A stretch of 46,086 nt of DNA from Planctomycetota bacterium (GTDB lineage: Bacteria; Planctomycetota; Planctomycetia; Gemmatales; Gemmataceae): assembly GCA_016872595.1 (NCBI GenBank), contig VGZJ01000011.1, positions 1 to 46,086 on the forward strand, in the 5' to 3' direction. A model generated the notes under the pieces. It made no database searches, was not told the origin of the DNA, and saw only the letters and a list, made by a program, of their open reading frames with translations. Positions 3,307 to 24,630 of the stretch are shown here, piece by piece (position 1 is the first letter of the stretch; each line of letters begins with the position of its first letter). Both the position numbers and the translations under genes were made by a program.

Positions 3307-3453
3307 GAAGAACCTAACCCCCCGGCCCCCTTCCCTGAAGGGAAGGGAGTGGGTTCGTGTTTGAAGAGCCGAACAGCTCCCCCGGCGCGCGGCGAATTTG
3401 GCGCGCGTGCTCCCCTTCCCTTCAGGGAAGGGGGCCGGGGGGTTAGGTTCTTC
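3307..3453. repeat. Inverted repeat with 41-bp perfect arms
   Basis: Arms 3307-3347 and 3413-3453 are exact reverse complements over 41 bases and begin GAAGAACCTAACCCCC on the left. Each arm contains its own small palindrome (TTCCCTGAAGGGAA). The 65-base centre is not symmetric. The translated arms give the PNPPAPFPEGKG artefact often seen where this kind of dispersed repeat is called as coding. It sits between divergent genes, and its right arm ends 17 bases before the ATG of the oxidoreductase at 3471, so it lies in that gene's promoter or leader region. Confidence 0.9.
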
Positions 3454-12276: not shown

Positions 12277-12347
12277 GGTGAGCGGGGGGCGTAAGCCCCC
12301 TGTTCAGTGTGTAGCTCTCGAACAGGGGCTTACGCCACCCGCTCGCC
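12277..12347. repeat. Palindromic element, copy A, overlapping a gene end
   Basis: The left arm 12277-12305 and right arm 12320-12347 are inverted copies (GGTGAGCGGGGGGCG against CCACCCGCTCGCC), with one mismatch pair near the GGG run, one at the outer arm, and a one-base length difference. The loop is 14 bases. A related element lies at 23566-23640. The right arm covers the last codons and the stop of the ATP-grasp gene at 12330. In RNA it would form a strong stem of about 27 bp. Confidence 0.85.
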
Positions 12348-13292
12348 AGCTCTCATCACCAAGTAATCCACCAACCGAGCGAACGGGTCGAACCCGACCA
12401 CGTTCACAGCGTCGGCGACGAAGTTGGACAGCGCGTTGATGTCGTAATAGACGATGCCGCCGTCGCGGTCGTCGATCATGTACTCGATGCCGCCCACGTC
12501 GATGCCCGCGGTCTGCATGATCGTCTCGCACGCAGCGATCGCTTTCGGCGGCGGGGTATAGCCTTGCACCTTCAGCCCGGTCTTCGGCGCGTCGATGGCA
12601 CACGCCCCGCGCACCAGTTCCACGCCGTCGGCGCGCTGGCAGATGTCCGCAGGGCACAGGTTGAACGATTCGCCCGTCGTGTAGACCTTGATCGCGTAAA
12701 GGAACTTGCCGCCGAGCGTTTCGACGCGGGTGATGTGCCCGCCGCGCGCCGGAACGAACTCCTGCACGAGCGCTGTGTGATCGACTCCGAAATCGAAGCC
12801 GTTCGCCGTGGCCGTGGTCGCCAGCGAGTCGCGCGAGGCGTACTTCACGATGCCCGCGCCGCTGCCGCCGATGTTCGCCTTCACGACGACTGGGAACCGC
12901 AGTCCCTCGCTCGCCTCGACTACCTTAGAGGCGTGATTCACGACCCGCGCCCGCGGGTACGGCAGGCCTAGCGCTTCGAGCAGCGTGAGCTGCCGCGCCT
13001 TGGAAATCTCGATGGAGAACCCGTTAAGCCCGTTTACGACGGGCACGCCGAGGCGCTCGAGGTGGGCCATGAACCCGACCGTGAAGAACATCCCCTGCAC
13101 CCCGCCGCGTAGGTACGCCGAAGGGCTCATGCGGTTGAAGACTAGAGAATACGGCGACTCCTTTTCGCGCGGGTCGTAGCAGTGCGCCCGCGGGTCGAGC
13201 CGCACGAACGGGATGTCGCGCCGCTCCAGCTCTGCGAACAGCGGGCGGAACCAGTCGGGGTGCTCGTGGTAAATCGCGAACGGCTTCGGCAT
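12330..13292 (-). CDS. ATP-grasp (RimK-like) ligase
   Basis: This 320-residue protein has the ATP-grasp layout. An N-terminal domain (KPFAIYHEHPDWFRPLFAEL) is followed by the ATP-binding region with FPVVVKANIGGSGAGIV (lysine and glycine-rich loop) and LVQEFVPARGGHITRVE. The metal-binding end is GGIEYMIDDRDGGIVYYDIN with an Asn near ALSNFV. Such enzymes join a carboxylate to an amine or thiol through an acyl phosphate. The substrate is unknown. The last residues (AGERVA) and the stop are supplied by the palindromic element, so the original C-terminus may have been altered. Confidence 0.85.
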   Translation of the reverse strand: MPKPFAIYHEHPDWFRPLFAELERRDIPFVRLDPRAHCYDPREKESPYSLVFNRMSPSAYLRGGVQGMFFTVGFMAHLERLGVPVVNGLNGFSIEISKARQLTLLEALGLPYPRARVVNHASKVVEASEGLRFPVVVKANIGGSGAGIVKYASRDSLATTATANGFDFGVDHTALVQEFVPARGGHITRVETLGGKFLYAIKVYTTGESFNLCPADICQRADGVELVRGACAIDAPKTGLKVQGYTPPPKAIAACETIMQTAGIDVGGIEYMIDDRDGGIVYYDINALSNFVADAVNVVGFDPFARLVDYLVMRAGERVA

Positions 13293-22320: not shown

Positions 22321-22842
22321 TCAGGATCGCGCGCGCAGCACGACCGACACCGCTTCCCCCACGTCGGCCACCGCGCCCGGCAGCGTCGCGCCGTGGCCGG
22401 TGCGCACCAGCAGCGTGCGGCATCCCGCGGCGACACCCGCCCCCGCGTCGCACGCCTTGTCGCCGATCATCCACGACCGCGCGAGGTCGATGTCGAAGTC
22501 GCGCGCCGCGGTCAGCAGCATCCCCGGCTTCGGCTTGCGACAGTCGCACGATCCGGTAGTCTCGTGGTGCGGGCAGTAGTAGTACGCATCCACCTTCGCG
22601 CCGAACTCCGCCAACAACCGCGAGAGCCGTTCGTGAACCTCGTCGACGCGCGATTCGGGAAAGTACCCGCGTGCGACGCCGGACTGATTCGTCACCACGA
22701 TCACCAGCGCGCCGGCCGCGTTCAGCGCTCGCACGGCGTCGGCCGCGCCGGGAATAAGCCGCACGCAGTCCGGGTCGGCGAGGTAGTGGGCCTCCTCGAT
22801 CAGCGTGCCGTCGCGGTCGAAGAACACAGCCTCACGCGGCAT
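22321..22842 (-). CDS. gmhB: D,D-heptose 1,7-bisphosphate phosphatase
   Basis: The protein has 173 residues and is a HAD-superfamily enzyme. FFDRDGTLIEE (Asp9 nucleophile, Asp11), VIVVTNQSGVARG and the zinc-binding block YYCPHHETTGSCDCRKPKPG, followed by MIGDKACD, all match GmhB. It removes the 7-phosphate of D-glycero-D-manno-heptose 1,7-bisphosphate. Histidinol-phosphatase-type relatives share the motifs, but the hddA-hddC context settles the choice. Its start overlaps the end of hddC by 11 bases. Confidence 0.92.
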   Translation of the reverse strand: MPREAVFFDRDGTLIEEAHYLADPDCVRLIPGAADAVRALNAAGALVIVVTNQSGVARGYFPESRVDEVHERLSRLLAEFGAKVDAYYYCPHHETTGSCDCRKPKPGMLLTAARDFDIDLARSWMIGDKACDAGAGVAAGCRTLLVRTGHGATLPGAVADVGEAVSVVLRARS

Positions 22843-23548
22843 GGCCCGCTTCCCGGTGTGCGGCGAACGCGCGGAGCGCGTCCGGCGTGCCGATGTCGGT
22901 GAAGGTCGCGGCCTGCACGAACGCGGCCAGCGGCAACCCGGCGCGGACCGCCGCCGGGAAAACGTCGCGTTCCAGAGACACCGCTTCGCCCGCGGGCACG
23001 CGCCCCAACAGGTCGCGCGTAATGACGTAAACGCCGGCGTTCACCCAGTCGCTGGTGGTCGAGCCCTTCTCGCGGAACGCGGTCACGCGCTCCCCTTCGA
23101 GCTGCACCGCGCCGTAACGGGTCGCGTCCGGCACGCGCGCCAAGGTCAGAGTGGCGAGCGCTTGGGCCGCCGAGTGTACGCGCACGAGGCCCGGCAAATC
23201 AACGTCGATGTCCGTGTCGCCGTTTGCGACGAGCGCGGCCGGTGCGAAGAAGCGTTCCGCGCGCTTCAGCGCGCCGCCGGTGCCGAGCAGGGCGGGGCCG
23301 TCGTGCGAGTAGTCGATGCGCGCACCGAGCGCGCGGCCGTCGCCGAATGCGGCTTCGATCTGATCGCCCATGTGGCCGATGCACAGCACGAAGTGCCGCG
23401 CGCCACGGGCGCGAAGTGCGCGCAGTTGCAGTTCGAGGAACGGCACCGCGCCGACCGGGGCGAGCGCCTTCGGGCGGTCGGCGACCGCGGGGCGCAAGCG
23501 CGTGCCCAACCCGCCGCACAGCACGATTACAGGAAGATCGAGCGTCAC
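22832..23548 (-). CDS. hddC: Heptose 1-phosphate guanylyltransferase (HddC-like)
   Basis: Starting at GTG 23548, which overlaps hddA's TGA as GTGA, it has 238 residues. The nucleotidyltransferase motif is VIVLCGGLGTRLRP, followed by RPKALAPV. ALLGTGGALKRA, LVANGDTDIDVDL with metal-binding Asp, and WVNAGVYVI follow. It likely joins GMP from GTP to D-glycero-alpha-D-manno-heptose 1-phosphate. A mannose or glucose 1-phosphate substrate is possible by motif alone; the flanking hddA and gmhB favour heptose. Confidence 0.87.
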   Translation of the reverse strand: MTLDLPVIVLCGGLGTRLRPAVADRPKALAPVGAVPFLELQLRALRARGARHFVLCIGHMGDQIEAAFGDGRALGARIDYSHDGPALLGTGGALKRAERFFAPAALVANGDTDIDVDLPGLVRVHSAAQALATLTLARVPDATRYGAVQLEGERVTAFREKGSTTSDWVNAGVYVITRDLLGRVPAGEAVSLERDVFPAAVRAGLPLAAFVQAATFTDIGTPDALRAFAAHREAGHAA

Positions 23549-24630
23549 GCGACCTCCTGCATCTGTGGCGAGCGGGGGGCGTCGGCCCCATGTTCTCGCT
23601 TCGTGTTCTCCATCATGGGGCTCGCGCCCCCCGCTCGCCATGCGTGGCTGTTGTCGAAGACGACGCGCGAGCCGGGGGCGTCGAGGGGGAGGCGCACTTC
23701 GACGAGGTCCGCGAGGCGCGCGCGGATCGCGGCGTGCGCTTCCGGCGGCGCGAAGAACAGCAGGAAGCCGCCGGCACCCGCGCCGAGGAGCTTCCCGCCG
23801 ACCGCGCCGGTGTCGATACCCGTCTGATACCACTCGTCGATCGTCGGGCTGCTGACGCGACGGTCGAGCGCGCGCTTCAACTGCCACGATTCGTGCAGCA
23901 ATTCACCGAACGGCAGCAGCGAGCCGGGGCCGGTCAGTACGCGGTGGCCGTCGTCCACGAGGGCGCGCATGCGGTTCAGGCGCGGCGCGTTCTGCGCGGC
24001 GCGGCGCGTTTGGGCGCGCGCCAGCGCGTCGGCCCGGCGGCGGATGCCGGTGTAGAAGACGAGGAGGTGCGCTTCCAGTTCGCGCAGTCGCTCTGGGGCG
24101 AGCGCGAGCGGGGTCACGCGGAAGTCGTCGCGCGCGCGGAACTCGATCAGATTGAACCCGCCGACCGCGGCGAAAGTTTGGTCTTGGCAACCGACGCTCT
24201 CGCCGAGCACATCGCGCTCGAACTCGACGGCGCGATAGGCCAGTTCCAGCGGCGAGACCGGGCGCTGCTGGTGCGCGCGGATCGCGCCCAACAGCCCGAC
24301 CGTAAACGCCGACGACGAGCCGAGGCCGGTCATTGCCGGCAGCTCCGCCGTCAACGTGATCTCGGCGTCGCGCGTCAGCCCGGCCCACTTGAGGCACTCA
24401 CGGAACGGCCGGTGTTCGAGGTCGCCCACGTCGCGTACGCACTCGACGTTGCGATAGGCGACGCGCAGGCGGTAGTCGAACAGGCGGCTCGCGAACGGCG
24501 CGACGGTGAAGTAACATGCGGGCGCGACGGCGGAACCGAGCACCGCGCCGCCGTGGTGCTCGAAGTGTTCGGGGTAGTCCGTGCCGCCGCCGAGAAAGCT
24601 CACGCGCAGCGGCGTCTGGGTGATGATCAT
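23545..24630 (-). CDS. hddA: Heptose 7-phosphate kinase, GHMP family (HddA-like)
   Basis: The ATG at 24630 gives 361 residues beginning MIITQTPLRVSFLGGGTDYP, the family's usual opening. The GHMP ATP motif is LPAMTGLGSSSAFTVGLLGA and the C-terminal glycine motif is GGKLLGAGAGGFLLFF. It likely phosphorylates D-glycero-D-manno-heptose 7-phosphate at carbon 1. The last 30 or so residues (from HAWRAGGASPMMEN) are encoded by the palindromic element at 23566-23640 and are unlikely to belong to the native fold. It is the first gene of the minus-strand run and lies 136 bases from a divergent gene. No gmhA isomerase is in the window. Confidence 0.9.
   Translation of the reverse strand: MIITQTPLRVSFLGGGTDYPEHFEHHGGAVLGSAVAPACYFTVAPFASRLFDYRLRVAYRNVECVRDVGDLEHRPFRECLKWAGLTRDAEITLTAELPAMTGLGSSSAFTVGLLGAIRAHQQRPVSPLELAYRAVEFERDVLGESVGCQDQTFAAVGGFNLIEFRARDDFRVTPLALAPERLRELEAHLLVFYTGIRRRADALARAQTRRAAQNAPRLNRMRALVDDGHRVLTGPGSLLPFGELLHESWQLKRALDRRVSSPTIDEWYQTGIDTGAVGGKLLGAGAGGFLLFFAPPEAHAAIRARLADLVEVRLPLDAPGSRVVFDNSHAWRAGGASPMMENTKREHGADAPRSPQMQEVA
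23566..23640. repeat. Palindromic element, copy B, inside the 3' end of hddA
   Basis: Arms 23566-23592 and 23614-23640 are inverted copies with three mismatches in 27 (TGGCGAGCGGGGGGCG against CGCCCCCCGCTCGCCA); the loop is 21 bases. The outer half of the arm matches the element at 12277-12347, so both are one dispersed type. It lies within the hddA reading frame, which stays open through it. Confidence 0.87.

Follow-up and report, generated by a model that had tools for sequence, protein, structure and literature searches.

A REPIN-like palindrome family within and between the genes of a Gemmataceae genome codes the tail of an HddA-like kinase

Palindromic repeats inside bacterial genes have been described before. 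In the parts of Di Nocera et al. (2013, PMC3733652) drawn on here, REPs of the GTAG/CGTC kinds are reported within genes, often DNA-repair genes including uvrA; their termini supply stop codons, two Xanthomonas recB genes carry different REPs at about the same site, most REPs are nevertheless intergenic, and RPEs are described with a CGTC end tag. The repeat treated here, family a, resembles these intragenic REPs in that its copies are small palindromes, occur singly or as inverted dimers, lie in frame in genes including uvrA and can supply stops. As far as that account goes, it differs from the GTAG/CGTC REPs in having no terminal tag, in its Gemmataceae host and in the placement of 37% of its sampled copies deep inside genes, and the CGTC end tag given there for RPEs is likewise absent from the ends of its units. 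The Rickettsia palindromic elements, in the part of PMC10969869 used, also lie in frame inside many genes of known function; they measure about 150 bp and have another sequence and host, whereas family a consists of 26-bp units and pairs of roughly 70-90 bp.

REPINs, as presented in the sections consulted of Bertels and Rainey (2011, PMC3116915) and of work on TnpA-REP (PMC8266576), share with family a the inverted pairs that form a long hairpin and the occurrence of single units, and a sister family, family b, shares with REPIN/RAYT systems a repeat that brackets a Y1_Tnp gene. In contrast to the REPINs of those sections, family a has no RAYT found adjacent (83 loci), carries no GTAG tag and is not mainly extragenic. 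While REPs and REPINs are characterised as mostly extragenic, 35 of 91 family-a elements lie wholly outside called genes in the genome of the window (G000, a 6.8-Mb draft), and 40 of 72 in the second species compared (G016). Given that no RAYT was found beside it and that GTAG/CGTC is missing, we call family a REPIN-like and do not assign it to the tagged REP super-families. The kind of element is already known from intragenic REPs and Rickettsia RPEs; what is new is family a itself, the hosts in which it occurs and the large extent to which it occupies coding sequence, and no report of in-frame palindromes in Gemmata or its relatives was found in the open-licence literature. For the REP-like repeats of this group, the term "extragenic" is ill suited.

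The window, the whole stretch of 46,086 nucleotides that was analysed, holds two inverted pairs of family a (Table 1). The pair in the kinase gene consists of two 27-nt arms (23566-23592 and 23614-23640) that are 89% complementary and enclose a 21-nt loop; as RNA it folds at -61.7 kcal/mol, against -34.3 +/- 3.2 for shuffled sequences (z -8.65), and none of 200 shuffles was as good. The whole element lies within the open frame of the kinase and codes residues 331-355 of 361 (WRAGGASPMMENTKREHGADAPRSP), after which only QMQEVA precedes the TGA stop. Arms, fold and translation thus bear out the original prediction of a palindrome inside the open frame at the end of hddA; its figure of 25 repeat-coded residues also stands, but these belong to the last 31 residues and not to the last 33. 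The kinase matches Pfam GHMP_kinases_N and _C as well as PDB 3k85 (E 9.6e-33), and its match to the NCBIfam HddA model scores below the model's cut-off. The alignment to this solved HddA stops at the start of the repeat-coded insert. The kinase stop overlaps the GTG start of the HddC-like gene (GTGA), and AGGAGG precedes that start. An intrinsic terminator was considered as the identity of the palindrome and rejected, since the G+C-rich hairpin is followed on the kinase strand by ACAGATGCAGGAGG in place of a T run. An Rfam search of the window returned tRNA only.

Table 1. Features of the window at the two family-a pairs
Feature	Coordinates	Strand	Remarks
Family-a inverted pair (REPIN-like)	23566..23640	.	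Minus-strand reading WRAGGASPMMENTKREHGADAPRSP
HddA-like GHMP sugar kinase gene, 361 aa	23545..24630	-	Own gene caller; TGA stop 23545-23547
HddC-like nucleotidyltransferase gene	22832..23548	-	Sequence; Pfam NTP_transferase on 22862-23548
Second family-a inverted pair	12277..12347	.	Holds TAA stop of ATP-grasp gene
RimK-like ATP-grasp gene, 320 aa, end RAGERVA*	12330..13292	-	Own gene caller; repeat supplies TAA (GERVA*)

Family a is built on the unit GGCGAGCGGGGGGCGTNAGCCCCCTG, which by itself holds a small stem around GTNA. As read from the copies, it occurs as single units and as two inverted units that enclose a variable loop, such pairs making up 22 of the 91 elements in G000 and 17 of the 72 in G016; the units end in GGCGAGC on the outer side and in CTGTTC or CTGAT on the inner side. 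No terminal GTAG or CGTC tag is present in the copies read, CGTC appearing only inside the loop of some units. Across G000, an arm 15-mer with at most one mismatch gives 146 matches against 10 for the reversed control; within the window, with at most three mismatches allowed, there is no enrichment (16 matches, 14.4 expected). Of the 102 genomes of the order, 34 contain the exact 26-mer, as do 18 of the 44 genera, and none contains its reversed control. The spread is patchy, with many copies in G017, G027, G090, G091, G000 and G016 and no exact 26-mer at all in several genomes of the same genus, and the 69 stretches recovered by a scan with a 29-base family-a pattern all bear titles of planctomycete MAGs (Gemmataceae, Singulisphaera or others). 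At 3307-3453 the window has, between divergent genes, an inverted repeat of another kind that is perfect over 41 nt (CCCCCCGGCCCCCTTCCCTGAAGGGAAGGG), and sequence related to it stands in frame in the same genome's UvrA (about residues 1637-1670) and Mfd (about residues 240-265).

Family b of G000, with the unit GCGAGCGGCGCGGCGTAAGCCCGCCGGT, has a head similar to that of family a and the same loop. Its 21-mer with at most two mismatches gives 156 matches against 1 for the control, and two of its inverted pairs, one to either side, bracket a RAYT-like gene of contig C241 that contains Pfam Y1_Tnp. Judged from the listing, palindromes of their own flank many further RAYT-like genes in the genus, and one such gene in G006 is bracketed by units of a third family with the same layout; PF01797 occurs in 16 of the 19 genomes of the genus. 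By analogy with this linkage of family b and with the literature, family a may be mobilised by a RAYT-type (HUH, IS200-like) transposase that would act through single-stranded DNA. No RAYT adjoins family a in 83 RAYT loci, some of them overlapping, at up to four mismatches over 22 bases. One match in that search (L167) lies within a SucA-like gene about 330 nt away and is not adjacent, and those at L173 and L180 are weak. A home-made profile scan for RAYT over 205 sequences, namely the window plus 204 loci that carry family a or were picked for it, gave an apparently adjacent candidate at L326 that is a shadow frame of another gene; the remaining matches lie more than 1 kb from any element, a second L326 shadow frame excepted. 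The RAYT-like gene bracketed by family b (L134:1393-1917) itself runs into repeat sequence, where its final codons and its TAG stop lie (end QASGAG*).

We consider it highly probable that the tail of the kinase gene, and the genome as a whole, carry surviving insertions of a REPIN-like mobile palindrome that leave proteins working. A miniature palindrome of this kind would have landed in the kinase gene's tail, a little ahead of the neighbouring gene's overlapping start, and would have been retained since the frame, the stop/start overlap and the Shine-Dalgarno-like sequence of the next gene stayed intact; it would now code an appended tail of 25 residues that is most likely inert. More generally, family a would insert broadly and protein-breaking copies would be lost, so that the survivors would be those between genes, at gene ends, where some give the stop, or in frame in loops and linkers. 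Because many relatives of the element sit inside or between genes, the new kinase tail looks like a tolerated passenger rather than a purpose-built part. What the sequences show is the family itself, its in-frame coding, its broad placement and the differences between species at shared sites; the neutrality of the tail and the course of events in the kinase gene are what we infer. In favour of the mobile-element reading we count the 146 matches against 10, the units and pairs, the position of family b beside a RAYT, the placement, the extra inserts, the variation between species and the patchy spread, and against it the 83 loci with no RAYT beside family a, the missing GTAG/CGTC tag and the inserts common to several species. 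That family a has moved is suggested by comparison of sequences.

Placement was scored on gene calls from our own codon-usage caller, not a standard program, whose starts are less certain than its stops. For G000 it covers 91 elements in 76 sequences (75 stretches and the window) around listed, mostly exact, matches, and so not all 146; for G016 it covers 60 stretches around listed exact matches, with places on C203, C218 and C227 left out. In both genomes gene interiors are depleted of copies only two- to threefold and gaps are strongly enriched. Deep inside genes lie 34 of 91 elements in G000, in frame and for instance in uvrA and mfd, where 71.7 would be expected at random, and 22 of 72 in G016 (56.7 expected). 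Tandem gaps hold 28 elements in G000 (3.5 expected), 22 of them nearer the upstream stop, and 25 in G016 (2.8); the corresponding numbers are 3 (0.6) and 3 (0.5) for convergent gaps and 4 (1.8) and 12 (1.6) for divergent ones. Starts attract no excess, with 5 elements within 60 nt in G000 (4.2 expected) and 3 nearby in G016 (3.2); in G000, none crosses a start (2.1 expected) and one overlaps two genes (0.6). Such a placement is in keeping with copies that insert broadly and are then lost where they do harm.

It had also been proposed that the elements home in on stop codons or on the 3' ends of genes. The comparison of the sampled palindromes with stops did yield stop-spanning copies in excess of random expectation, 10 against 2.0 in G000, or about fivefold, and 5 against 1.6 in G016, but it also placed many copies between genes or deep inside them. 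Just upstream of stops there is no enrichment (6 against 4.3 within 60 nt in G000, 2 against 3.3 near stops in G016), one third of the copies lie deep inside genes, and the excess in gaps overall equals or exceeds that at stops (35 against 6.0 and 40 against 5.0). Given that the enrichment at stops is no greater than that in gaps, there is no reason to invoke stop targeting, which we regard as extremely improbable; G016 agrees with G000 on this point. The palindrome could instead be maintained for its RNA hairpin, which would lie between co-transcribed genes and adjust mRNA stability or translation of the downstream gene, with the residues coded incidentally. Its very stable fold and the excess in tandem gaps, mostly towards the upstream stop, would suit such a role, but the many copies deep inside genes stand where translating ribosomes would melt hairpins, divergent gaps are enriched too in G016, and the spacer behind the ATP-grasp gene is short and without any comparable palindrome in G005 and G017. 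We therefore find a retained RNA hairpin improbable.

The same ATP-grasp spacer holds the second family-a pair in G000 and another palindrome in G006. In G000 this pair, a copy of the same type as had been predicted, ends the gene with a TAA of its own, and the protein runs 4 residues beyond the stop point of 13 of 17 orthologues, the other four extending in other ways. In both genes the repeat thus supplies a new C-terminus with the frame kept open, as originally claimed, and orthologues without the repeat end differently. The family-a unit has six possible readings: QGA[D/N]APRSP, GGLRPPLA or RGLTPPAR in antisense, ASGGR[K/Q]PP or RAGGVSP in sense, and GERGA* in the one sense frame that reaches TAA. 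With a stop in only one of six frames, an in-frame insertion will usually not interrupt the gene, and terminates it in a single setting. Arms in the stop-bearing frame stand at ORF ends in 13 of 14 cases, against 5 of 86 in the other frames (p 1.6e-11), a descriptive figure from a partly circular test, because the TAA in the element ends the ORF. The completeness of repeat-terminated proteins was judged from the ends of orthologues and Pfam domains: GERGA* follows directly on the catalytic domain of an E2 acyltransferase and on that of a Rieske oxygenase, and six other proteins were not decisive. Where they can be judged, the repeat-terminated proteins look complete.

Within proteins, the repeat-coded peptides are extra relative to solved homologues. 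The FPP-synthase-like protein has about 8 extra residues, UvrA has one insert of about 28 residues and a second further on, and Mfd and a HemW-like protein have one each. In a TrmD-like protein the homologue match extends to residue 215 and the repeat lies within the extra tail; with an MnmE-like protein the GTPase part alone was aligned and the insert falls outside the alignment; and in SucA-, PabB/TrpE- and UvrA-like proteins two Pfam domains that share one reading frame flank the element. Such copies form a natural insertion-mutagenesis record in which loops of essential proteins such as UvrA, Mfd and the FPP-synthase-like enzyme accept 8-30 extra residues, and they make family a a system in which to study how proteins come to tolerate selfish DNA. 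The variable base of GCGTNAG also differs with setting. Between genes it is A in 34 of 47 clear cores in G000 and 42 of 53 in G016, against 0 of 18 and 1 of 13 in the antisense QGA[D/N]APRSP frame (Fisher 4e-8 and 3e-6; loci L056-L130 and L302-L361, leaving out two odd cores in either class of G000), where an A would code Tyr, not a stop.

The same sites vary between related species. At the hddA tail, four orthologues at 69-80% identity end differently: where G000 has the family-a pair, G006 (80% identity) carries an inverted repeat of another kind, read RTEDRRQRPDE..., G005 and G016 have an apparent single family-a arm (GAYAPHSP and GTYAPRSP), and in G011 no palindrome was recognised. Five close orthologues have little in common in their tails beyond the terminal EVA, whose conservation need not concern the kinase because the same DNA forms the Shine-Dalgarno sequence and start overlap of the next gene. 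The loop of the FPP-synthase-like protein holds ASGGRKPP in G000, a family-a pair in G006, a related pair in G008 and, in G005, G016 and G009, sequence of the PPTPSPKKGGG / PPPFLGEGAGG type that by eye resembles the palindrome family at 3307-3453; one UvrA loop likewise carries different palindromes in different species. Other inserts, at the second UvrA site and in PriA, an OdhB-like protein and SucA, are common to more than one species, and so not all are young or quickly lost.

These comparisons bear on the suggestion, made in the original prediction, that the repeat-coded C-terminus of the kinase has been domesticated and has a selected function. Domestication would be compatible with the intact frame and with the finding that, elsewhere, some inserts coded by the repeat occupy one site in more than one species, but the hddA tails share little beyond EVA, one of them derives from a different palindrome, and the alignment to 3k85 ends where the insert starts. 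No positive evidence for domestication emerged, and we judge it very improbable. A broader idea is that several unrelated palindrome families of this genus repeatedly colonise shared sites in orthologous housekeeping proteins, both loops and tails, which would be standing docking sites with turnover of the peptides, the elements being coding-compatible and the variable base of GCGTNAG being set by the reading frame; we offer this tentatively, as possible but doubtful.

Two further observations concern repeats at similar places in different genes. A family-a arm stands at apparently the same place in SucA-like genes of G006 (L167:828-849) and G000 (L105:4270), read with Tyr in the former, as translated by hand, and with Asp in the latter. 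QGADAPRSP occurs at a similar place in large proteins of 989-1032 residues, apparently of one family, in G000 (L061 and L074) and G016 (L322), which would reflect either an ancient insertion that predates a duplication or a site used more than once.
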